Assembly: GCF_000568255.1 (NCBI RefSeq)
Contig: NZ_KK037166.1
Span: 3,257,305 to 3,307,881 of the forward strand
Source: Kutzneria sp. 744
GTDB taxonomy: Bacteria; Actinomycetota; Actinomycetes; Mycobacteriales; Pseudonocardiaceae
Direction: 5' to 3'
DNA: 50,577 bases
Shown: positions 1-45,117 of the stretch, in pieces
How the letters are laid out: every line of letters starts with the position of its first letter
Numbering within the stretch: the first letter of the stretch is position 1
Program-made: the position numbers and the translations under genes
The notes under the pieces: model-generated
What the model was told of the DNA's origin: nothing
What the model saw: only the letters and a program-made list of their open reading frames with translations
Database searches by the model: none

Positions 1-1293
1 CGCAACTTCACCGTCCGCGGCGGCACGCGGCAGACCGACCTGGACGGGCAGACCCAGGTCGGCCGGTTCTCCGGCGGCGAGTACATGAACGCCGGTCCGG
101 CCCGGATCGCGCAGTGGATGGTGACCCTGGACTACTGCCGTGAGCTGGGCATCCCGATCGAGGTGTTCACCAACACCAACGCCAGCGCGCTGATCTACCA
201 CGAGGGCATGGGCGCGCCGGTCCGCTACCGCACGGCCAAGGCCGATGTGTACGGCTACGTCAGCGAACTACTGGCCAAGGCCACCGACCAGGGCGCGTTG
301 GACAGCTCCCTGACCGGTGACGACAAGCAGCGGCTGCTGGCGTTTCTCGAAGGCTGGGGCGACATCGGGGCGCAGCACAGGTACACGGGGTCGAAGCGCC
401 GCGGCTATTCGGTCGATCCGGGGGCTTTCGACCAGGCCGGCACTCCGCTCCCCGGGCCGCCGTCGCTGTCGGACGTCCTGGCCAGCGGCGTCGGCCGGCA
501 TTTCTCGTTCGAGTTCGAGTACGAGCAGGCCATGCTGATGTTCCAACCGGTCGGCGGCATGGACCGGATCCCGGCGGCGCTGGTGCGGGCGATCGGGCCG
601 GGCCGGGTGCGCACCGGGTGCGCCGTCACGGGAATCACCAACGGTGACAACGGGGTTTCCGTCACGTACACGCGCGGCGGCCGGGAGCAGCGTATCGACG
701 CCGACTACTGCATTGCCGCGATGCCGCCGCACATCGCCGCCCGCATCCCGCACAACCTGGGCGCCGATGTGCGGCACGCGCTGACCACCTTCGACGTCCA
801 CCCGGTCGGCAAGATGGGCCTGGAGTACCGGAGCCGCTGGTGGGAGACCGATCACCGGATCTACGGCGGCATCACCGAGACGGACCTGGACCTGGATCAC
901 GTCTGGTATCCCTCGCACGGCTACCACGGTCGCCGGGGCACCCTGATCGGCTACTACAACACCGATGCGCATGCCGTGGCGTACGGGCAGCTGACGCCGG
1001 CGCAGCGGGAGGCCCGGGCGGTGGCGCAGGGCGTGCGGATCCACGGCGACAAGTACCGGACCGAGCTGGCCAGCTCGTTCTCCGTTGCCTGGCACCGGAC
1101 TCCGCACATCGAGGGCGGCTGGGCGCTGCCCACCACCGACAACATCCCGGCGTACGTCCTGCTCAACCAGCCGCAGGGCCGGGTGTACTTCGCCGGCGAC
1201 TGGCTGACCTTCCTGGTGACCTGGCAGGCCGGCGCGTTCGACTCGGCCCGGCGGGTGGTGACCGAGCTGCACTCCCGCGTGCTGAAATCCTGA
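1..1293 (+). CDS. Flavin-dependent amine oxidase / L-amino-acid oxidase (C-terminal part, 5' truncated by window)
   Basis: The frame is open from base 1, so the N-terminal FAD-binding Rossmann segment lies outside the window; about 430 residues are visible. The segment GGEYMNAGPARI near residue 26 is the substrate/FAD-contact region usual in actinomycete L-amino-acid oxidases and tryptophan 2-monooxygenase-like enzymes. The C-terminal GRVYFAGDWLTF followed by WQAGAFDSARR is the second FAD-binding motif of the flavin monoamine oxidase family. Such enzymes deaminate an amine or amino acid, giving an imine/keto acid and peroxide. The substrate cannot be told from sequence. The gene ends about 50 bp before the T-box leader and belongs to a separate transcription unit. 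A second member of the same superfamily lies at 5810-7444. Confidence 0.85.
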   Translation, partial: RNFTVRGGTRQTDLDGQTQVGRFSGGEYMNAGPARIAQWMVTLDYCRELGIPIEVFTNTNASALIYHEGMGAPVRYRTAKADVYGYVSELLAKATDQGALDSSLTGDDKQRLLAFLEGWGDIGAQHRYTGSKRRGYSVDPGAFDQAGTPLPGPPSLSDVLASGVGRHFSFEFEYEQAMLMFQPVGGMDRIPAALVRAIGPGRVRTGCAVTGITNGDNGVSVTYTRGGREQRIDADYCIAAMPPHIAARIPHNLGADVRHALTTFDVHPVGKMGLEYRSRWWETDHRIYGGITETDLDLDHVWYPSHGYHGRRGTLIGYYNTDAHAVAYGQLTPAQREARAVAQGVRIHGDKYRTELASSFSVAWHRTPHIEGGWALPTTDNIPAYVLLNQPQGRVYFAGDWLTFLVTWQAGAFDSARRVVTELHSRVLKS

Positions 1294-1340
1294 GGCGTGC
1301 TACCGGCTTCATCGGATACGCTGTGCCGCAACACGGTGAC

Positions 1341-1591
1341 GGAGACAAGTAGCCGGGGACCAACACGGGTCTTCAGAGAGCCGCCGGTAGCTGCGAAGGC
1401 GGTCCCGCGTCCCCCGGCGAAGACACTCCCGAGTGCGGGAGCAGTGATATCGAAGGGTCGGGCCCCGCCGGCCGGCCCGCGTGATCGGGCCAGAACGAGG
1501 TCCCCGTCCGCGGGGGCGAAAGTGCGGTGGCACCGCGAGTTTCCCTTCTCGCCCGCACTCCCAAGGGGTCGACTCGACCACTGGAGTGGCG
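1341..1591 (+). ncRNA. T-box riboswitch, Asp-specific, probably translational
   Basis: Stem I runs 1341-1429. Its base GGAG (1341-1344) pairs with CTCC (1426-1429). The 5' side of the specifier loop carries the AGTA box (1348-1351). An upper helix (1352-1360 with 1409-1418) leads to AGAGAG (1375-1380) and an apical CCGCC/GGCGG stem (1381-1385, 1398-1402). The 3' side of the specifier loop reads GAA-GAC-A (1419-1425), so the specifier codon is GAC (Asp). Stem III is 1502-1515. The T-box GGTGGCACCGCG (1526-1537) sits in an anti-sequestrator: AGTGCGG (1521-1527) pairs with CCGCACT (1553-1559), GCGAG (1535-1539) with CTCGC (1548-1552), and TGGCACC is left as the 7-nt bulge. TGGC fits a tRNA ending GCCA. 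The alternative helix CACTCC (1556-1561) with GGAGTG (1583-1588) covers the Shine-Dalgarno. There is no U-tract. Confidence 0.9.
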
Positions 1592-2854
1592 ATGATCGCC
1601 CGTGTCCTGTCCGCGGAACTGGCCGCCCGCATCGGTGAACGCGTGCGCGTCGCCGGCTGGGTGCACCGCGGCCGTGAGCTGAAATCCGTGACCTTCGTGA
1701 TCGTGCGCGACCGGTCCGGGCTGACCCAGGTGGTCACCTCCGGGCCCGCGCCCGCCGAGGAGACCGTCGTCGAGGTGACCGGTCTGGTCACCGCCAACCC
1801 CAAGGCCCCCGGCGGTTGTGAGCTGACCGAGCCGGTGCTCACCGTGCTCGGCGAAGCCGTCGCGCCGCCGCCGTTCGACCTCTACCGGCCGACCGTCGCC
1901 GCCACCCTGCCGACCATTTTGGACCATGCCCCGGTGGCGCTGCGGCATCCGTTGCTGCGGGCCCAGTTCGAGATCGCCGCCGCCTCCGTCGCCGGCTTCC
2001 GCCAGGCCCTGGACGGCATCGGCTGCACGGAGATCCACACGCCCAAGATCGTCGGCTCCGCCACCGAGTCCGGGGCCAACGTCTTCGGCATCGACTACTT
2101 CGGGCGCAAGGCCTTCCTGGCCCAGTCGCCGCAGTTCTTCAAGCAGGCCATGGTCGGCGTGTTCGAGCGCGTGTACGAGGTCGGGCCGGTGTTCCGGGCC
2201 GAGCCCCACGACACCGCCCGTCACCTGGCCCAGTACACCAGCCTCGACGCCGAGATCGGGTTCATCTCCGACCATCGCGACGTCATGGCGGTGCTGCGCG
2301 AAGCCATCGCCGGCATGCTGGCCGGCGCCGCTTCGCGGGCCGAGGCGGTCGAGCTGCTCGGGGCCGAGTTGCCCGAGGTGCCGGCCGAGATCCCGTCCAT
2401 TCACTTCGCCGAGGCCCAGAAGCTGTTGGGCGGCAAGGACGAGGTCGACCTCGCCCCGGCCGACGAGCGGTGGCTGTCCGAGTGGGCCCGGCGCGAGCAC
2501 CGGTCGGAGTTCTTGTTCGTCACCGGCTATCCCATGGCCAAGCGTCCCTTCTACACCCACCCCGAACCCGGCAACCCTCTGTACAGCAACAGTTTCGACC
2601 TGCTGTTCCGTGGCTTGGAGCTCGTCACCGGCGGTCAGCGCCTGCACCGTCACGCCGACTACCTGGCTGCGTTGGCGCAGCGCGGCGAATCGCCCGAGGC
2701 GTACGAGGGCTACCTGGAGGTGTTCGCGCACGGCATGCCGCCGCACGGTGGCTTCGCCATCGGGCTGGAACGGTGGACCGCTCGGTTGCTGGGGGTGGCG
2801 AACATCCGGCAGACGACCCTGTTCCCGCGAGACCTGCACCGGCTGACGCCGTAG
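1592..2854 (+). CDS. aspS: Archaeal-type aspartyl-tRNA synthetase, probably non-discriminating
   Basis: This 420-residue class II synthetase has an N-terminal OB-fold (about 1-100) and a catalytic core with motif 2 FRAE at 201-204 and motif 3 GFAIGLERW near the C-terminus, followed by FPRDLHRLTP. The short length, with no bacterial GAD insertion, marks the archaeal/eukaryotic type, so it may be a second AspRS besides a housekeeping one (not in view). His25 (GWVH) and Pro73 (PKAPGG) align with the positions I recall as Trp26/Lys85 in the discriminating archaeal enzyme and His/Pro in enzymes that also charge tRNA-Asn. The ATG at 1592 is chosen because GGAG (1583-1586) lies 5 nt upstream and is the site masked by the T-box leader. 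A 12-bp hairpin terminator follows. Confidence 0.9.
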   Translation: MIARVLSAELAARIGERVRVAGWVHRGRELKSVTFVIVRDRSGLTQVVTSGPAPAEETVVEVTGLVTANPKAPGGCELTEPVLTVLGEAVAPPPFDLYRPTVAATLPTILDHAPVALRHPLLRAQFEIAAASVAGFRQALDGIGCTEIHTPKIVGSATESGANVFGIDYFGRKAFLAQSPQFFKQAMVGVFERVYEVGPVFRAEPHDTARHLAQYTSLDAEIGFISDHRDVMAVLREAIAGMLAGAASRAEAVELLGAELPEVPAEIPSIHFAEAQKLLGGKDEVDLAPADERWLSEWARREHRSEFLFVTGYPMAKRPFYTHPEPGNPLYSNSFDLLFRGLELVTGGQRLHRHADYLAALAQRGESPEAYEGYLEVFAHGMPPHGGFAIGLERWTARLLGVANIRQTTLFPRDLHRLTP

Positions 2855-4484: not shown

Positions 4485-5630
4485 ATGTCAGCGAATCCCG
4501 AATTCCCTGCCGACACCGAAGGGTGGCAGCACGGCGAACTGGAGCTGTGGCAAGCCGGCGAAGAAGCCGAAACCCTGTATCGGGCGCTCTACATCCAGCA
4601 GCTGGAGCGGGTGTGGGAAGTCTGGGACCGATCAGTGAAGTCGAAAGAGGACCGGACCTCGATCGTGTCGACAATGGTGATCCGCTGGCGGCTCACGATC
4701 AGGGAAGCGCGTGAGCGGCTTCGGTACGCGGAACTGTTCCACAGCGAGGCGATCCGCGAAGCAGGCCGCGCTGGAGAGTTGGACCGGCAGCACTTGAAGA
4801 TCATCCACGAGACGTTGCGGATAGCGCCGGCGGCCGAGCGGGACAGGGTTGAAGCATCACTGTTGGAGAACGTCCAGTTCGACGAGGGCGAGTTCAAGAA
4901 CATCGCGCAACGGATCCTGTTCCACCTCGACCAGGACGGCAAAGCCCCGGACGACCGCGAACTGCGGACACCGAAGCGGGAGTTCCGCTTCGAACGCAAG
5001 CTGGACGGCAGCATGGTGTTCTGGGGCAGACTCGACCAGGAGTACGGGGCGAAGATCGCGGCAATGCTCAGCGCGCTGGCCAAGCCCACCTCCGGCACAG
5101 ACCCCCGCACCACCGCCGAACGGCAAGGCGACGCGTTCGCGGAGATCATCGAGCTCGCCTCCCGCAGTGAAGGCCTGCCCGAGCAGGGCGGCGAGCGCCC
5201 ACACCTGACACTGTCGATGTCCTTCAAGGACTTCATGGACAACACGGGTGTGGCGAAGGTCGAAGGCGGGGGCGTGATGAGCGCGGCGGAGGCCCGGCGG
5301 ATCGCCTGTGACAGCACGGTGATGCGCCTGGTGCTCGGAGCTGGCAAAGAGATCCTGAATGTGGGCCGCCAGCAACGTACAGCCCCGAGGGGGATCCGCA
5401 AGGCGCTGATCGAGCGGGACGGCGCTTGCGCGTTCCCCGGCTGCGCGACGGAACCGGCGCGGTGTCACGCCCACCACGTGGTCGAGTGGGCGAACGGAGG
5501 ACCCACCAGCCTCGACAACATGGTCCTCCTCTGCGGGGCGCATCACCGATTGATCCACCACAGTCGGTGGACGGTGAAGATGGTGGACCAGCGGCCGGTG
5601 TTCTCAGACGGGCTAGGGGAAACGGGGTGA
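4485..5630 (+). CDS. DUF222 / HNH endonuclease domain protein (13E12-repeat type)
   Basis: The 381-residue protein has the DUF222 region through roughly residues 20-290, followed by a C-terminal HNH fold with CAFPGC, CHAHHVVEWANGG and NMVLLCGAHHRLIH (about 325-365). The two Cys pairs and the His residues fit a zinc-stabilised beta-beta-alpha-metal nuclease site. The family is heavily multiplied in mycobacteria and relatives; its biological role is unsettled, and mobile-element or DNA-processing roles have been proposed. Nothing adjacent looks mobile. The nearest Shine-Dalgarno-like GGGAG (4468-4472) lies unusually far from the ATG at 4485, so translation may be weak or the start may differ. 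Confidence 0.85.
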   Translation: MSANPEFPADTEGWQHGELELWQAGEEAETLYRALYIQQLERVWEVWDRSVKSKEDRTSIVSTMVIRWRLTIREARERLRYAELFHSEAIREAGRAGELDRQHLKIIHETLRIAPAAERDRVEASLLENVQFDEGEFKNIAQRILFHLDQDGKAPDDRELRTPKREFRFERKLDGSMVFWGRLDQEYGAKIAAMLSALAKPTSGTDPRTTAERQGDAFAEIIELASRSEGLPEQGGERPHLTLSMSFKDFMDNTGVAKVEGGGVMSAAEARRIACDSTVMRLVLGAGKEILNVGRQQRTAPRGIRKALIERDGACAFPGCATEPARCHAHHVVEWANGGPTSLDNMVLLCGAHHRLIHHSRWTVKMVDQRPVFSDGLGETG

Positions 5631-5809: not shown

Positions 5810-7444
5810 CTAGAGCAAGGACAAGAGCTCGGCGGCGGCGCGGGCGCCGGACTCGGCGCCGCCGTTCATGTAGCCCTGAGAGTCGACGGAAGTGTGCTCG
5901 CCGGCCAGGTGGATGAGGCCCTGACGAGTGGCCTCGTAGCCGGCGAAGCGGTGGCAGTAGTCGACGGGATAACAACTGTAGGCGCCATGGCTGAGAGGGT
6001 TGCGGTGCCACGCGGCCAAGGTGGCCTGGCCGGTGTAGGCGTCGGCGAGGGGAGGGACGACGGGGGCGAGCTGGGACAGCTTCTGGCGGACGGAAGAGCG
6101 CACGTACGGGGAGAAAGCGTTGGAGAAAGGGGATGAAGGCTGGAAAGACAGAGCGCCGCTGCCGCCGCCGTACTGGACGGCGATGCCCGAAGGGCCGGGC
6201 TGACCGGTGGTGGCGTCCCACACCTGCTGGTAACCGGTGTCGGAAAAGCTGATGCCGTTGGCGACACCCGGCCAAGGGCCGTGGCCGAGCCAAGGGCGGG
6301 AGGAGAACCGCATGTGCAGCTTGGTGCAGAAACCCATCTGTAGCTGGGAAACCGCGCCCCTCATACGAGGGTCGAAGCCGGCGCGGCTGAGGTCGAGCCG
6401 CTGCAACACGCCGAGGGGCACGGTCAGAACGGTGTGATCGGCCCGCACGGCGCCGGTGTCGAAATGCAGAGTCTGGGAGCCATCACTGTTGCGTACCAAG
6501 GCTTCGAGGCGGTGACCGTGCTGGACCGTGCCGGCGGGTAAAGCGCGGGCGATGGCCTCGGGGAGAGTCTGGTTGCCGGCGGTGATGTGAAAGCGCTCGT
6601 CGGAAGCACCCCAGATCTCGGGCTCGGAGAGATCCGACTGGTCGATCATCATGTACGCCAGGTTGACGGCGGTCTGCTCGGAGGTGTCGCGGCCGTACTC
6701 GACCACGTAGGCGTCGTCCAGGAAACGGGCGATCCACGTCGAATAGCCGCCGGGCACGCGGGTGGAAATCCACTCCTGCACGGACATGCGGCTCAACGCG
6801 ACACCGAAAGGCGTCGACGAGTCCCAGGTCGGGGCGTCCGCGCCGGCACGGTCGATGTCGGCCCGAAGAGCCTTGTACACGGGCTGGAACTCGGCGACGA
6901 ACTCGGCATGCGAACGGTAACGGCCCTCGTAGTACAGAACATCGTTGCTGCCGACGGGCTCTGCGGCGCGGATATCGGTGAGGCCGATGGAGAAACGCTT
7001 GCACAGGGCGCGGATCACGGAGTGGTCGGTGTCGATCAACTCGCCGCCGTACTCGGTGACCTGCCCGCCGCCCCAATAGTCACGCTCGGAGAACATCCGG
7101 CCGCCGACACGGTCGCTCGCCTCGTAGACGGTGCAGCGCACGCCGGCATCGGCCAAGGCGAGGGCGGTGTTCAAGCCGGCGATGCCGGCGCCGATGACAG
7201 CAATCCGCGCCTCGGTACCGCCCAGCGGCACGGCGGCCGCCCTCGGTGCACGTAAGACGCTGGCCGCGCCGAGCACGGCGGCGGAGGCACCGAAGATCCG
7301 GAGCGCGTCACGACGGCTCAACGTGCCGGCTGCCCGGGCCAGCCGCGCCTCACGGAACTCCAGGACCGGCATGCCCAGCCGTGCGGCGGCGGCATGGTCG
7401 GTCGCGACTCGACGCAGGAACCGGAACATCTCCGTACGCGGCAT
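5810..7444 (-). CDS. Tat-exported flavin monoamine oxidase / L-amino-acid oxidase
   Basis: About 544 residues. A twin-arginine signal (LSRRDALRIFG then an Ala-rich stretch ending APRAAA) precedes the dinucleotide site RIAVIGAGIAGLNTALALADAG and the VGGRM FAD motif. The C-terminal HLAGEHTSVDSQGYMNGGAESGARAA is the second FAD-binding block, so the enzyme is full length. It should act outside the membrane, folded with FAD before export, oxidising an amine or amino acid with release of peroxide. About 35 residues precede the RR motif, an unusually long n-region. I chose ATG 7444 because a TTGACA box (7475-7480) and a weak TTTGCT lie at promoter spacing directly upstream, suggesting a leaderless transcript. 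A start at the later ATG of MFRFLRRV is possible. Confidence 0.85.
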   Translation of the reverse strand: MPRTEMFRFLRRVATDHAAAARLGMPVLEFREARLARAAGTLSRRDALRIFGASAAVLGAASVLRAPRAAAVPLGGTEARIAVIGAGIAGLNTALALADAGVRCTVYEASDRVGGRMFSERDYWGGGQVTEYGGELIDTDHSVIRALCKRFSIGLTDIRAAEPVGSNDVLYYEGRYRSHAEFVAEFQPVYKALRADIDRAGADAPTWDSSTPFGVALSRMSVQEWISTRVPGGYSTWIARFLDDAYVVEYGRDTSEQTAVNLAYMMIDQSDLSEPEIWGASDERFHITAGNQTLPEAIARALPAGTVQHGHRLEALVRNSDGSQTLHFDTGAVRADHTVLTVPLGVLQRLDLSRAGFDPRMRGAVSQLQMGFCTKLHMRFSSRPWLGHGPWPGVANGISFSDTGYQQVWDATTGQPGPSGIAVQYGGGSGALSFQPSSPFSNAFSPYVRSSVRQKLSQLAPVVPPLADAYTGQATLAAWHRNPLSHGAYSCYPVDYCHRFAGYEATRQGLIHLAGEHTSVDSQGYMNGGAESGARAAAELLSLL

Positions 7445-7450
7445 GCCGGG

Positions 7451-7480
7451 AGCAAACACCAACCGAATCAGTACTGTCAA
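7451..7480 (-). promoter_or_regulatory. Possible leaderless promoter for the Tat amine oxidase
   Basis: Read on the minus strand, TTGACA (7480-7475), an 18-bp spacer and TTTGCT (7456-7451) place the -10 box 6 bp before the ATG at 7444. The -35 is perfect; the -10 is weak. Confidence 0.35.
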
Positions 7481-39734: not shown

Positions 39735-42700
39735 CTACACCGGGTCGGGATGCAGCTGCCCCACCCCCAACAGCCCCGCCACGAACTCCGCTATCCGTGC
39801 CACCGACGGGTAGGTCCACAGCAGCGTGGCCGGCAGGCTGACGGGCAGCTTCTTCTGGAGCTTGCCGCGGATGGTGATGCTCATGACCGAGTCGATGCCC
39901 ATCTCGGTGAGCGGGCGGCGGGCGTCCATCTCGGCGACGGGCAGGCGCAGCTCGTTGGCGACGACCGTCAGGACCAGGTCGGACAGGCGGTCGAGGGTGA
40001 GCTCGTCCATCTGCTCGGCCGGCTCGGCCGAGGGCTCGTCGGTGGCGAGGTCGCCGAAGACCGGCAGCCGTCGCTCCCCTGCGGCCATGGCGGTCAAGGG
40101 TAGGACCGCCAGATAGGGGGAACTGAACCGTTCGGCCCATTCCCAGCACTGGAAAGCGTCCACAGTGGACAGGTCGGTGGTGCCCTGGGCGGCCATGACG
40201 GCGGCGAGGGCCTCGACGGCGTCGGCGGCCATGCCCCGACCACGCCAGGCGGTCCAGGCCAGGCTCTGGGTGTTGTCGCCACGGTGGGCGGCCAGCACGT
40301 CGAGCACGCTGTTGGCCGAGGCGTAGCTGATCTGCCCGGGCACCTGGAAGACCTGCCCGCACGAGGAGAACAGCACCAGGAAGTCCAGGGAGCCGGGCGG
40401 GAACAGCTCGTGCAGCACGAGCGCGCCGGAGACCTTGGGCCGCAACACCTTGCTCAGGCTGCTGCGGTCGACCTGGGAGATCAGCTGGTCGTGCAGGACG
40501 CCGGCGGCGTGCACGACGCCGCGGATCGGCGGCAACTCCAGGGAGTCCAACACCTTGGCCGTCTTGGCCGCGTCGGCGATGTCCAGCGCCACGGGATGGA
40601 CTGTCACGCCGAGGGATTCCAGAGCGCCGATGGCGTCCAGTCGCCGTCGGACGATCGGATCCGTGACGTGGGGCCAGTCCCGGCGGGGCGGCAGCGGGGT
40701 GCGGCCGGCCAGCACGAGCCGGCGGGCGCCGCGGCCGACCAGCCAGGCGGCGACCTCCAGGCCGAGATCGCCGAGCCCGCCGGTGACGAGATACGTGGCG
40801 TCGGCCCGGAGTTCGACGGGGGTTCGGTCGGGCGCCCGGTCGACCGCGGCCAAGCGAGCGACCTCGACCTCACCGGCGTCGAGCGACAGGATGTCGTCGC
40901 GCGGGGCCGCGCGCAGCAGCCCCAGCAGGCCCTCGATGCCGTTGGTCAGATCGATGGTGCCGCCCCAGAACTCGGGATGCTCGTTGGCGGTGACGCGGCC
41001 AGCGCCCCACAGCGGCGCATGCGCGACCGCCGAGGCCTCAACGGCGTCGCGCACGCCACGGGTCAGGCACCACAGCCGAGGCTCGACCGCCGCACCCAAA
41101 CCGTTGAGCCGCTGGACGGTTCGCGTGTAGCGCCACGCAGTGGTGGCGACCGCGTCGTCCAACGAGTCGCCCGGAAGCGCCGGCGCGAACAGCACGACGC
41201 TCTGCACGTCGAAGTCGCCACGAAGGCCGGTCAGCTCCTCGGGTTCCCGCACGTGCACGCAGCGCAGGCCGCCGACGACGAACTGGGAAGAGATCTCGCG
41301 AACGAACTCGTTGTCGTCACTGATGATCACGGCCAGGCGAGGGTCGGCCATGCGGTGCGTCGGCTCCGGATCGGGCAGCGGCCGCCAGGCGAGCTCGTGC
41401 ACCAACCGCCGAGGGTCCGTCACGCCGCCGTCGACGGAATCCAGCAACCCGAAGCGAACTCCGTGCACGACCGCCACCGGCGCGCCGTCGGCGTCGGCCA
41501 CCCAGACGTCGACGGAGTCGAGCGGCGAGTCCGGGTTGGTCCGCGCCGACACCTGGATCTCGTTGGGCGGCAAGGCATCGGCCACCGACAGCAGCTCGAT
41601 GTGCGCCGGCATTCGTTGCACGGCACGGTCCGGCAGCACCAACGGCGTCAGCGTGACCGCCGCGTCGAGGGCATGGGCCCACGACAGCGGCCCGTCGCCC
41701 ATGGTCATGCGCGCGAACATCTCGCCGTCACCGCTGCGCAGTTCCGTGGCCTGCCAGTCGAAACCGAGGCCATCGGCGCCCATCTCCGCCATCAGCTCCG
41801 GCACGGCCGTGCCGTCCATCACGGTCGCGCACCGCTCCCGCGACGCCCCGAAGTCCGGGAAGTCGTTACCCTCCAATGGGCTGTGCGAGGCGACGGCCGT
41901 GGTGTGGGTGAGCCAGCTGTCGTCGTCCTCACCGTGCGGACGGCTGGCCAGGGTCAGCACGCCGCCCTGCCGGATCACCTGCACGTCCCGACTCGGCTCC
42001 ACCGCCAGCGGAACCCGCAGGTTCACGTCCGTGAGCCCGGTGAGCTCACCGGTGGCCAGGAAGCTGTTGAGCAGCACCGCCGCCGGCACGATCTCCACGC
42101 CGTGCACGGGATGCTCGCCCGGGTACGGCCGGCTGTCTTCGTCCAAAGTGGTCTGCCACATCCGCGTCGGGCTGCCGCCGCCGATGGTGACCATGGCGCC
42201 CAACAGGGTGTGGCTGTCGGGATCGTGGCCGGCGTCGGCCGAGCGGGCCTTGCCGGTGTGCCAGTACGGCCGGTGCTGCCAGGCGTTCGTCGGCAGGTCG
42301 ACCAGGGCCAGGTCAGGGTGGACCCGGCTCCAGTCGACGGACACGCCCCGGCAGTGCAGCGCCGCCAGGGCGGTCAGGAACTGCTTCGGCTCAGGTTCGT
42401 TGCGCCGCAACGTGCCGATGATGGCGCCCTCGCCGGCCAGCATCTCGCCGACGGAGTGCACGACCAGCGGGTGCGGGGAGACTTCGAGGAACAGCCGGTG
42501 CCCGTCCTCGATCGCCGCCTCCACGGCCGCGGTGAACCGGCACATCTCGTACATGTTGACCGCCCAGAACCGGGCGTCCCTCGACGTCTCGGCCCGCGGG
42601 TCGGGAAGCGTCGTGTTGTAGGCCGGCAGGGTCTGCGGCCGGGCCTCGATGTCGGACAGCGCGGCGATCACGTCGTCGCCCAACGGCTTCAGGTGGTGGC

Positions 42701-44876
42701 TGTGGTAGGCGACGGGCGTGTTGATGCGGAACGCCTTGGTCCCCTCGGCCTCGCACTCCGCGATCAGGGCGACGACCGAGTCGATGTCCCCGGAGACCAC
42801 TGTGGACGTCGGCGAGGAGGTGATGGCCGCGGCCAGGTCCCCGCGGCCGGCGAGCCGCGTGACGACCGTGTCGAAGTCCAGGTACACCAACGCCATCGCG
42901 CCCTGCCCCTCGACGCGGCGCATGATCATCGCCCGCCGGCACACGCTGCGGGCGGCGTCGGAGAGTGTGAGCGCTCCCGATACGACGGCGGCGGCGTACT
43001 CGCCGAGCGACTGGCCGAGGACCGCGGCCGGGACCACGCCGTAGGAACGCCACAGCGCGGCCAGGGCCACCTGCATGGCGAACGTCGCCGCCTGCATGTG
43101 GTCGACGTGCTCCTGATCGTCGCTGACGAGCAGGGCGTGCGCCCCGACGCCCAACTCCTCGAAGAAGATCGGGTCCAGCTCGTCGATCACGGCGGCGAAA
43201 ACCGGTTCGGCGGCGACGAGTTCTCGGCCCATACCGACCCAGTGCCCGCCGTAGCCGGAGAACACCCACACCGGCGCGGGATTCTCCATGGTCTCGGCCG
43301 AAACCAGGCCCGGCGCGGGGTCGCCGGCGGCCAGGGCCCGCAGTCCGGAAAGGACGGTGTCACGGTCGCCCACGACGGCGGCGCGGCTGGACAGGTGGGC
43401 TCGCCGCCGGGCCAGCGTGGCGGCGACGGCGGAGAAGTCCTTGTCGGGGTTGGACTCCAGCCAGCCGGCCAGGTTCGCCGCGTTGGAGCGTAAGGCCGCC
43501 TCGGTGCGGGCCGACAACGGCAGGGCGGTCTCGAAGACGCCGTCCCGGACCGGAACCGCGATCTCCGGGGCCTGTTCGACGACGATGTGTGAGATGGCGC
43601 CGCCGTAGCCGTAGCAGGACACACCGGCCCGGCGCAGGCCGTTGTGCGGCCACGGGGTCGGCTCGGTGACCAGCCGGAGTCCGTTGTCCTCCCAGGGAAT
43701 CTCCGGGTTGGGCGTTGTGACGCCAACGCTGGGCGGGATCTCGCCGTGGTGCACGGCCAGCACGGTCTTGATCAGGCCGGCGATGCCGGAGGCCGCCTCC
43801 AGGTGCCCGATGTTCGGCTTCACGGAGCCGATCAGGCACGGCTGCCCCGCCGGCCGTCCACGCCCGACCACATCGGCCAGCGCGGCGGCCTCGATCGGGT
43901 CGCCGACCGGCGTGCCGGTGCCGTGGGCCTCCACGTAGTCGACGGCCTCGGGCAGGATGCCGGCGAGCTCGTAGGCGTCGGACAGCATGGCCGACTGGCG
44001 GTCGGTGCTGGGGACCATGATCGCCTGAGTGCGGCCCTCGTGCCGGGAGACGCTGGCCCTGATCACCGCGAGCACCCGGTCGCCGGCCGCGAGGGCGTCG
44101 TCGAGGCGCTTGAGCACCACCGCGCCCGCGCCCTCGCCGCGCCCGTAGCCGTTGGCGTCGGCCGAGAACGACTTGGAGCGCCCGTCCGGGGAGGTCGCGC
44201 CCATCTCGTCCAGCGCGACGAAGCCGTGCGGGGTCGGCAGCACGCTGACGCCGCCCACAATCGCCGCCGAGATGCGGCCGGCGGCCAGCCGCTCACAGGC
44301 GAGATCCACGGCCGTCAGCGAGGAGGCGCAGGCCGTGTCGACCGCGAGGCTCTCGCCGAACAGGTTGAGGAAGTACGACACGCGGTTGGCCACCGCGTAG
44401 TAGGTGCTGCCCATGCCGGCCCACGGCTCGACATCGGTCATGTCCTCCAGCGTGCGGCGGCCGTATTCGGCGAACGTCACGCCGGCATAGACACCGGTGT
44501 TGGTTCCGCCGAGCGAAAGCGGGTCGATACCCGCGTGTTCGAGGGCCTCCCACACCACTTCCAGAAACAGCCGCTGCTGCGGATCGGTCACCTCGGCCTC
44601 ACGCGGAGAAATGCCGAAGAAATTGGCGTCGAACCCGTCGAGGTCGTTGAGGTAGGCGGCACGCGTCGACGCCTTGCGTAAGGCGGACGCCAATTGCGGG
44701 TTGCCCTCGACATACGGCTGGAGACGTTTCGCCGGCATAGCGGAGACGGCATTGCCGCCGCCCATGACGAACGACCAGAAATCCGCGACCGAGTGCAGAT
44801 CGGGAGCGAATCTGCACCCGAGTCCGACGACGGCCACCGGAATGAACTCATGCCGCGGCTGACGGGTCGCGCCCAC
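39735..44876 (-). CDS. Iterative type I polyketide synthase, KS-AT-DH-KR-ACP (6-methylsalicylate-synthase class)
   Basis: About 1713 residues in one module. KS: Cys183 (VDTACASS), His318 (EAHGTGT), His358 (KPNIGHLEAAS). AT: Ser623 (GQSLGEYAAA) with AYHSHH near 724-728, a malonyl-type AT. DH or thioester-hydrolase-type domain: HxxxGxxxxP at 922-931. KR: TYLVTGGLGDLG at 1361-1372, Ser1504/Ser1505 and Tyr1518. ACP: Ser1663 in MGIDSVMS. There is no enoylreductase and no thioesterase. Length and order match bacterial partially reducing aromatic PKSs such as ChlB1, MdpB, NcsB and AziB. Product size is not readable. GTG 44876 is chosen because AGGAGG lies 5 nt upstream. No transferase or tailoring gene is adjacent. 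Confidence 0.93.
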   Translation of the reverse strand: MGATRQPRHEFIPVAVVGLGCRFAPDLHSVADFWSFVMGGGNAVSAMPAKRLQPYVEGNPQLASALRKASTRAAYLNDLDGFDANFFGISPREAEVTDPQQRLFLEVVWEALEHAGIDPLSLGGTNTGVYAGVTFAEYGRRTLEDMTDVEPWAGMGSTYYAVANRVSYFLNLFGESLAVDTACASSLTAVDLACERLAAGRISAAIVGGVSVLPTPHGFVALDEMGATSPDGRSKSFSADANGYGRGEGAGAVVLKRLDDALAAGDRVLAVIRASVSRHEGRTQAIMVPSTDRQSAMLSDAYELAGILPEAVDYVEAHGTGTPVGDPIEAAALADVVGRGRPAGQPCLIGSVKPNIGHLEAASGIAGLIKTVLAVHHGEIPPSVGVTTPNPEIPWEDNGLRLVTEPTPWPHNGLRRAGVSCYGYGGAISHIVVEQAPEIAVPVRDGVFETALPLSARTEAALRSNAANLAGWLESNPDKDFSAVAATLARRRAHLSSRAAVVGDRDTVLSGLRALAAGDPAPGLVSAETMENPAPVWVFSGYGGHWVGMGRELVAAEPVFAAVIDELDPIFFEELGVGAHALLVSDDQEHVDHMQAATFAMQVALAALWRSYGVVPAAVLGQSLGEYAAAVVSGALTLSDAARSVCRRAMIMRRVEGQGAMALVYLDFDTVVTRLAGRGDLAAAITSSPTSTVVSGDIDSVVALIAECEAEGTKAFRINTPVAYHSHHLKPLGDDVIAALSDIEARPQTLPAYNTTLPDPRAETSRDARFWAVNMYEMCRFTAAVEAAIEDGHRLFLEVSPHPLVVHSVGEMLAGEGAIIGTLRRNEPEPKQFLTALAALHCRGVSVDWSRVHPDLALVDLPTNAWQHRPYWHTGKARSADAGHDPDSHTLLGAMVTIGGGSPTRMWQTTLDEDSRPYPGEHPVHGVEIVPAAVLLNSFLATGELTGLTDVNLRVPLAVEPSRDVQVIRQGGVLTLASRPHGEDDDSWLTHTTAVASHSPLEGNDFPDFGASRERCATVMDGTAVPELMAEMGADGLGFDWQATELRSGDGEMFARMTMGDGPLSWAHALDAAVTLTPLVLPDRAVQRMPAHIELLSVADALPPNEIQVSARTNPDSPLDSVDVWVADADGAPVAVVHGVRFGLLDSVDGGVTDPRRLVHELAWRPLPDPEPTHRMADPRLAVIISDDNEFVREISSQFVVGGLRCVHVREPEELTGLRGDFDVQSVVLFAPALPGDSLDDAVATTAWRYTRTVQRLNGLGAAVEPRLWCLTRGVRDAVEASAVAHAPLWGAGRVTANEHPEFWGGTIDLTNGIEGLLGLLRAAPRDDILSLDAGEVEVARLAAVDRAPDRTPVELRADATYLVTGGLGDLGLEVAAWLVGRGARRLVLAGRTPLPPRRDWPHVTDPIVRRRLDAIGALESLGVTVHPVALDIADAAKTAKVLDSLELPPIRGVVHAAGVLHDQLISQVDRSSLSKVLRPKVSGALVLHELFPPGSLDFLVLFSSCGQVFQVPGQISYASANSVLDVLAAHRGDNTQSLAWTAWRGRGMAADAVEALAAVMAAQGTTDLSTVDAFQCWEWAERFSSPYLAVLPLTAMAAGERRLPVFGDLATDEPSAEPAEQMDELTLDRLSDLVLTVVANELRLPVAEMDARRPLTEMGIDSVMSITIRGKLQKKLPVSLPATLLWTYPSVARIAEFVAGLLGVGQLHPDPV

Positions 44877-45117
44877 CGGCACCTCCTGCTCGAGCCCCAC
44901 TTCGATGTCAAACGACGCGCGAAAACAAGCCTCCCGTGCGAACCACGGTGGCCTCGTGACGAAGTAGACCGGCGACCAGCACCGACCACGGCAGACCGTC
45001 TACAGTGGTCGGTCACACGTGCGCTCAGACGCTATATGACGACGCCGACGGCCCCATACCGCCCACCCGGTGATTCAGCATTCAACCGCGATGACGCAGC
45101 GCTGTCGCCCAATGAAA

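Follow-up and report, generated by a model that had tools for sequence, protein, structure and literature searches.

The window, a stretch of 50,577 nucleotides from Kutzneria sp. 744, contains near its left end a T-box leader RNA (1327..1559) followed by an archaeal-type, non-discriminating-like aspartyl-tRNA synthetase gene (1592..2854; 420 aa; NF003483, nearest structure 1n9w), here termed AspRS2; all leader features described below and the gene itself are on the forward strand. A flavin amine oxidase gene (85-1293, forward strand) ends just before the leader and a second is located at 5810-7480 (reverse strand), a gene at 4485-5630 (forward strand) codes for a DUF222/HNH endonuclease-like protein, and 39735-44900 (reverse strand) encodes a polyketide synthase of one module, which comprises KS, AT, DH, KR and carrier domains. 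AspRS2 was also considered as the self-resistance gene of a biosynthetic cluster, but its neighbours gave no support for this role (15 of 33 predicted genes scanned, the nearest included) and the idea was rejected.

The leader matches the Rfam T-box model RF00230 over its full length (1327-1559 against model positions 1-219 of 219; 63.3 bits, E 1.7e-13; cmscan in E-value mode on the 501 bases 1200-1700), and a search of the 11.6-Mb genome gives two RF00230 matches, of which this one is the stronger (E 9.6e-13). The other is the leader of ileS (L002, genome coordinates 7719858-7720019), which is an ultrashort T-box. A gathering-threshold scan of the whole window listed no Rfam families, the 63.3 bits of the leader lying under the RF00230 cut-off of 93. 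The initial annotation, made from the sequence alone, had claimed a T-box here and proposed the covariance-model search as its check; the full-model match, though under the gathering score, bears this out, each of the landmarks it named can be read directly at its position, and the observation of a T-box at this site is confirmed. The start it gave, 1341, has to be corrected, as the match begins near 1327. The folding energy of 1335-1610 is not exceptional (z -0.12; 79 of 200 shuffles at least equal), and the evidence for a T-box comes from the model match and covariation rather than from energy. Together with the model match there are a specifier that agrees with the gene, a UGGN bulge and two mutually exclusive 3' folds, and membership of the Kutzneria leader among the T-boxes is close to certain.

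Stem I is of the long form (1341..1429), with a foot (GGAG 1341-1344 paired with CTCC 1426-1429), a specifier loop, middle helices, AGAGAG and a distal arm. The AGTA box of the specifier loop lies at 1348..1351, as placed by sequence and model alignment, AGAGAG is at 1375-1380, and the apical loop GGTAGCTGCGAA (1386..1397), of the double T-loop type, lines up with the model's own apical loop. The AGAGA bulge and the double T-loop sequence are class I features, predicted to bind the tRNA elbow, and by analogy the loop at 1386-1397 would make that contact here. On the 3' side the specifier strand GAAGACA (1419-1425) presents the specifier GAC (Asp; 1422..1424). Stem II and IIA/B follow (1430..1496; variable, placed from the model alignment and alignments of leaders), and then Stem III with its flanking purines GAGG ... 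GAA (1497..1520; model alignment). A congener's leader (L003:1460-1684) has lost Stem II and IIA/B and kept the remainder, and the AspRS2 frame at that locus extends beyond the usual end.

The full-length Stem I of the initial annotation is supported by an alignment of 45 long leaders (43 actinobacterial and two from Chloroflexota), in which 94.2% of cells are paired and 16 of 21 pairs include two-sided changes (87 cells). Each of five covariation measures was equalled in 0 of 500 shuffles, which leave the relatedness among leaders in place, and sliding the partners abolishes the signal. This alignment was reduced from 53 leaders to 47 by removal of six near-duplicates, and L047 and L146 were excluded from it, the wrong GAAGAC having been picked. 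The invariance of AGTA and GAAGAC in the aligned long set carries no weight, because the selection pattern required both.

The 64 actinobacterial AspRS2 T-boxes (37 from a family sample, 19 from a class sample and eight from named loci, with genomes G000 and G050 counted under the family) were located through Rfam or the AspRS2 gene before their specifiers were read by pattern; L068, which the pattern missed, and L152, where it hit a wrong site, were read by eye. The specifier reads GAC in all 64 and AAC in none; 53 have a long Stem I, and in the other 11 the GAC is in a short hairpin loop, a reading that is partly circular in that GAC itself served to locate the loop. The reading of GAC as an aspartate specifier thus extends over dozens of AspRS2 leaders. 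An exact pattern search of the genome finds one tRNA-Asp, with anticodon GTC and discriminator G73.

The anti-sequestrator (1521..1559) consists of helix A1 (1521-1527/1553-1559), the T-box bulge TGGCACC (1528-1534, direct reading) and helix A2 (1535-1539/1548-1552). Both helices show covariation: 99.3% of A1 cells and 94.0% of A2 cells are paired, and each helix has three pairs changed on both sides (46 leaders, 43 distinct). For the whole 3' structure three of five measures were equalled in 0 of 500 shuffles and one in 2 of 500; the measure of further pair types was 17 versus 16.1 in shuffles, 202 of 500 being as high. A first 3' alignment held 44 leaders, with L040 (no Shine-Dalgarno (SD) sequence found) and two Chloroflexota loci excluded, and the final set of 46 includes 36 of those 44 and 10 others, with the ultrashort L145, L152 and L156 excluded. 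The TGGC of the bulge is complementary to the G73 end of the genome's tRNA-Asp, as the initial annotation had proposed in matching the variable C to a G discriminator. Among the 46 leaders 38 have TGGC and eight have TGGT, which would place a U opposite G73, a wobble at best.

The sequestrator (1556..1588) pairs the anti-SD CACTCC (1556-1561) with the SD GGAGTG (1583-1588) around an inner hairpin (1567-1579). When the regions before the start codon were reassigned among 42 distinct leaders, with the score taking any match in the last 21 bases and relatedness among leaders again left in place, complementarity of anti-SD and SD was 411 for leaders with their own regions and 361 +/- 10 for re-dealt ones, with 0 of 500 as high. 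The best anti-SD match overlaps at least three bases of the SD-like core in 38 of 46 leaders and misses it in eight (L022, L028, L048, L052, L056, L066, L140, L143); scores are low, 6-7 only, in L144, L020, L060, L142 and L146. A1 and the sequestrator share 1556-1559 and are therefore mutually exclusive folds, both backed by comparison. The minimum free energy (MFE) fold of 1520-1597 is the OFF fold with A2 and the sequestrator (-31.8 kcal/mol), and forcing A1 and A2 gives -28.0, so that OFF is favoured by 3.8 kcal/mol in the absence of tRNA; with Stem III the values are -45.2 and -41.4. Minimal hand-drawn ON and OFF folds have energies of -23.8 and -23.2, and the predicted ON fold keeps part of 1568-1597 in hairpins. 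The CACTCC/GGAGTG helix that the initial annotation saw as burying the SD accordingly holds up, being leader-specific in its complementarity (0 of 500) and part of the MFE fold.

An additional long-range pairing joins the A2 loop CCCTT (1543-1547) to AAGGG (1563-1567). It is paired in 90.0% of cells with two-sided changes in 24 (46 leaders, 43 distinct), and variants include CCTTT/AAAGG in L056, CCCC/GGGG in L064-L066, AGCCC/GGGCT in L067, and CCCG/CGGG in L063, L068 and L154. At least four contiguous pairs are present in 45 of the 46 leaders; L143 has two. On re-dealing, own partners score 285 and re-dealt ones 271 +/- 6 with 9 of 500 as high, a weaker signal because a CCC/GGG core is common to nearly all leaders. 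In the OFF fold one partner belongs to the A2 loop and the other to the loop of the sequestrator, a single base away from the anti-SD/SD helix, on which the helix they form is probably stacked. With the ON fold formed, about 12 bp would need to be bridged by a linker of 3 bases, which we judge impossible, and we infer that the pairing is a pseudoknot of the OFF state that should exclude the ON state. The pseudoknotted OFF state is a reasoned proposal built on these predicted folds.

The foot of A2 is a G-C pair in all 46 AspRS2 leaders, versus G-U in 18 of 18 ileS-type leaders of the same family. The conserved G-U wobble expected of T-boxes at this position is thus absent from the window leader. 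The review of Zhang (PMC7583486) gives this conserved G-U pair as its main task the rejection of amino acids carried on the 3'-OH. A G-C foot unique to the actinobacterial aspartate branch was considered and rejected, as the Bacillota loci L072 and L084 appear to be G-C too when read by eye; because these two AspRS2 T-boxes read likewise, the foot is not taken as defining.

AspRS2 scores 527.9 bits against NF003483 (aspartate--tRNA(Asn) ligase; cut-off 353) and 335.5 against TIGR00458, under the cut-off of 368.4. The nearest solved structure is 1n9w/3kfu (406.9 bits), named a non-discriminating archaeal-type AspRS, followed by 1wyd (284.2 bits), 3nel (284) and 1b8a (279). His25 and Pro73 of AspRS2 are the same as in 1n9w, and 3nel and 1b8a, which we take to be discriminating enzymes, carry Trp and Lys; presumably these two positions separate non-discriminating from discriminating AspRS. 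The genome encodes three tRNA-synt_2 proteins: AspRS2, a bacterial AspRS (L012), and L013, which is taken for LysRS. The bacterial AspRS has no T-box, since the genome-wide RF00230 search gave only two matches. GatB is present, no AsnRS above cut-off is found in the genome, and a tRNA-Asn pattern gave 0 matches there, the pattern probably being too strict. With a bacterial AspRS, GatB and no AsnRS above cut-off, AspRS2 is therefore a spare enzyme, and Asn-tRNA is probably made through transamidation. The gene had initially been annotated as aspS, but it is a second, archaeal-type AspRS and not the housekeeping one, which is encoded elsewhere; this identity alters the biology and leaves the reading of the leader intact.

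Within the genus the leader precedes AspRS2 in five of seven genomes; in the remaining two a search at E <= 1e-90 finds no AspRS2. In the family sample RF00230 matches at E <= 0.001 occur in 128 of 297 genomes, and AspRS2 is present 44 times in 43 of the 297, with a T-box directly upstream of 36 of the 44 and none found by pattern upstream of the remaining eight. At least two of these eight (L177, L181) are the same enzyme type; at L182-L184 the AspRS2 gene is fragmentary and its start unsure, and the single T-box pattern match of L184 is inside apparent coding sequence. An additional T-box (L029 in genome G182) precedes an AspRS2 frame outside the 44-gene list. AspRS2 is found in 36 of the 394 genomes of the class sample, with a T-box in 21, none by pattern in 14, and one unclear (L169). 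The idea that a T-box always accompanies AspRS2 is therefore rejected, the T-box being absent in 8 of 44 cases in the family and in 14 or 15 of 36 in the class.

In all 21 genomes of the class sample with a T-box, AspRS2 is a second enzyme beside a bacterial AspRS. Across 52 genomes (the 36 of the class sample and 16 others) a bacterial AspRS is present in 38, and the 14 without one are exactly the 14 genomes of family f39 with a T-box-free AspRS2; one f39 genome (G464) has both AspRS enzymes and a T-box (L152). No AsnRS above cut-off was found in any of the 52, and weaker matches in 17 all fall at the AspRS2 gene itself. At the f39 loci L160, L162-L168 and L170-L175 the archaeal-type enzyme is the sole AspRS, again with no AsnRS above cut-off, and in f39 frames that reach the position KLGG replaces the Pro-containing motif. 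In the class sample the leader thus goes with AspRS redundancy, which supports a standby role for AspRS2. The eight leaderless genes of the family sample indicate that the leader is not indispensable and that redundancy does not require it.

Eleven of the actinobacterial leaders (L063, L064, L065, L067, L145, L151, L152, L154-L157) are candidate ultrashort forms with TGAC or CAGACA in a hairpin loop. Rfam misses all 11 loci at E <= 0.1, so that their identification depends on a T-box core, a hairpin with GAC and RNAalifold. When GAC-loop hairpins are ranked the expected one is first in seven of the 11 and second in two (L063, L151); in L145 and L154 it is outside the top two and was read by eye. 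RNAalifold on 10 aligned ultrashort leaders, using input stretches that started at the hairpin, predicts a short Stem I hairpin in which three of four pairs have two-sided changes, with TGAC invariant in the loop. The initial annotation had associated actinobacterial T-boxes with ileS, often with an ultrashort Stem I; the association needs widening, as these 11 AspRS2 leaders appear ultrashort as well.

A midpoint-rooted tree of 64 AspRS2 proteins places the T-box-bearing actinobacterial enzymes other than L020 and L158 in one clade of 41 (98/94), adjoining two Chloroflexota enzymes (joint support 100/100), with Bacillota enzymes that have AAC leaders nearest next. Ultrashort leaders are nested within long ones, and the well-supported branches force at least three changes. 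For example, L143, which is long, and L145, which is ultrashort with the hairpin GGAGCAGACACTCC, are sisters (100/99), and L068, also long, falls inside the other ultrashort group (96/92). Because L068 is nested among ultrashort leaders, multiple losses of the long Stem I and loss followed by regain both fit. L020 and L158, both long, are found before AspRS2 genes that belong to a different clade (100/99), which indicates an exchange between leader and gene; the L020 enzyme has neither the His nor the Pro residue.

These comparisons bear on three other readings of the leader. The same T-box could act on transcription, by termination or through Rho, rather than on translation, and on inspection by eye the Chloroflexota locus L098 carries a T-run terminator and L062 a long terminator-like hairpin, both ahead of the same kind of gene, which points to a transcriptional version there; actinobacterial terminators, moreover, may be without a T run. 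In the window leader, however, the SD itself forms the 3' side of the last hairpin, which stops 3 bases short of the ATG at 1592, no T run follows this hairpin and no terminator is seen by eye. This arrangement and the leader-specific match of anti-SD to SD make a transcriptional output unlikely. It is less probable still that the leader reads tRNA-Asn, or tRNA-Asp together with tRNA-Asn, although the AspRS2 leaders of Bacillota seem to read tRNA-Asn. The enzyme does carry the residues of a non-discriminating relative, no AsnRS is above cut-off, and AAC occupies the same place in the eight loci read among 11 AspRS2 loci of Bacillota that have a T-box core, but against this are the 64 actinobacterial GAC leaders with no AAC among them, and the position of L020 and L158 before AspRS2 of the other clade, with L020 without the two residues.

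A decayed leader, inherited as sequence and no longer functional as a switch, is at odds with the numerous compensatory changes across Stem I, A1 and A2 and with the leader-specific anti-SD/SD pairing. Absence of gene and leader from two of the seven genus genomes and the loss of Stem II in L003 would fit such decay, to which we assign a very small probability, marginally below that of tRNA-Asn recognition. The reading we prefer, a tRNA-Asp-specific T-box that acts on translation of the second AspRS, is on the sequence evidence highly probable, its tRNA-Asp specificity and its translational output each being very likely.

Comparison among leaders and genomes supports the helices, the specifier, the anti-SD/SD pairing and the genomic setting, and suggests how the switch would operate. 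GAC (1422-1424) in Stem I would read the anticodon GUC of tRNA-Asp while the apical loop, by analogy, would hold the tRNA elbow. The TGGC bulge would pair with the 3' GCCA end of uncharged tRNA only, stabilizing A1/A2 (1521-1559) and so engaging the anti-SD strand, such that GGAG (1583-1586) is freed; with charged tRNA or no tRNA, CACTCC would bind the SD and the gene would be closed. We infer from this architecture both tRNA binding and sensing of the charging state. AspRS2 would then be made when Asp-tRNA-Asp is scarce, as a standby for the bacterial AspRS, a role that we put forward as a reasoned proposal.

The leader appears to be a new variant, aspartate-specific and translational, within the known T-box class. 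We regard it as possible, at slightly below even chance, that these leaders form a separate aspartate branch with a pseudoknot-locked OFF state and G-U replaced by G-C, which would have undergone repeated loss of the elbow-binding Stem I as well as swaps between transcriptional and translational control and between distant AspRS2 genes. An aspartate-specific branch as such would allow a direct test of whether G-U is necessary for amino-acid sensing and of how a T-box moves from terminator to SD control, and its long and ultrashort forms, on one gene family and one tree, would test the need for an elbow-binding Stem I in translational T-boxes. It would also give the puzzling second actinobacterial AspRS a proposed role, that of a standby enzyme summoned by uncharged tRNA-Asp.

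Published accounts, in the sections cited here, centre on ileS. Seliverstov 2005 (PMC1262725) describes actinobacterial T-boxes on ileS, as does Wels 2008 (PMC2494555), which gives 32 T-boxes in 19 genomes then filed as Actinobacteria, 18 of the 32 being in Symbiobacterium, placed nearer Firmicutes. T-box classes III and IV are illustrated by ileS in a portion of PMC10482949, and the part of PMC10651847 cited here has an ileS T-box as its subject. Text from the TBDB paper (PMC7778990) has Actinobacteria scanned with a class II model, a passage of Zhang 2020 (PMC7583486) states that a small number of translational T-boxes possess a long Stem I, and an excerpt of PMC4206432 reports 15 further genera that have an additional AspRS, 10 of them lacking AsnRS, primarily Actinomycetales. 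Among the open-access matches listed no paper describes an aspartate T-box in actinobacteria, and a prior mention is possible. In actinobacteria proper the T-boxes named in these excerpts are those of ileS, to which an aspartate branch would be the second.

The actinobacterial ileS T-boxes (Nocardia farcinica, Mycobacterium), which are translational and have a short or ultrashort Stem I, share with the window leader an SD-sequestering output, the T-box bulge, Stem III and A1/A2, and the window leader differs from them in its GAC instead of ATC, its long Stem I with an apical loop, the G-C foot, and an A2 loop that pairs downstream. AGTA, AGAGA, the apical loop, a GAA-specifier strand and the T-box are held in common with the class I T-boxes of Firmicutes, which have a long Stem I and Stem II and are transcriptional, whereas the output here is SD sequestration and there is no terminator. 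The Bacillota AspRS2 T-boxes precede the same kind of gene, and their enzymes are the nearest T-box-bearing ones in the protein tree; their leaders have AAC in the eight loci read, out of 11 that show a T-box core, and terminator-like hairpins by eye, such that GAC and translation set the window leader apart. The Chloroflexota loci L062 and L098, from metagenome-assembled genomes, are alike in having GAAGAC and a long Stem I, with GAC as the specifier in both of the two AspRS2 T-boxes and enzymes 63% and 58% identical, and differ in a terminator recognized by eye, which is evident in L098 from the T run and represented in L062 by a long terminator-like hairpin.
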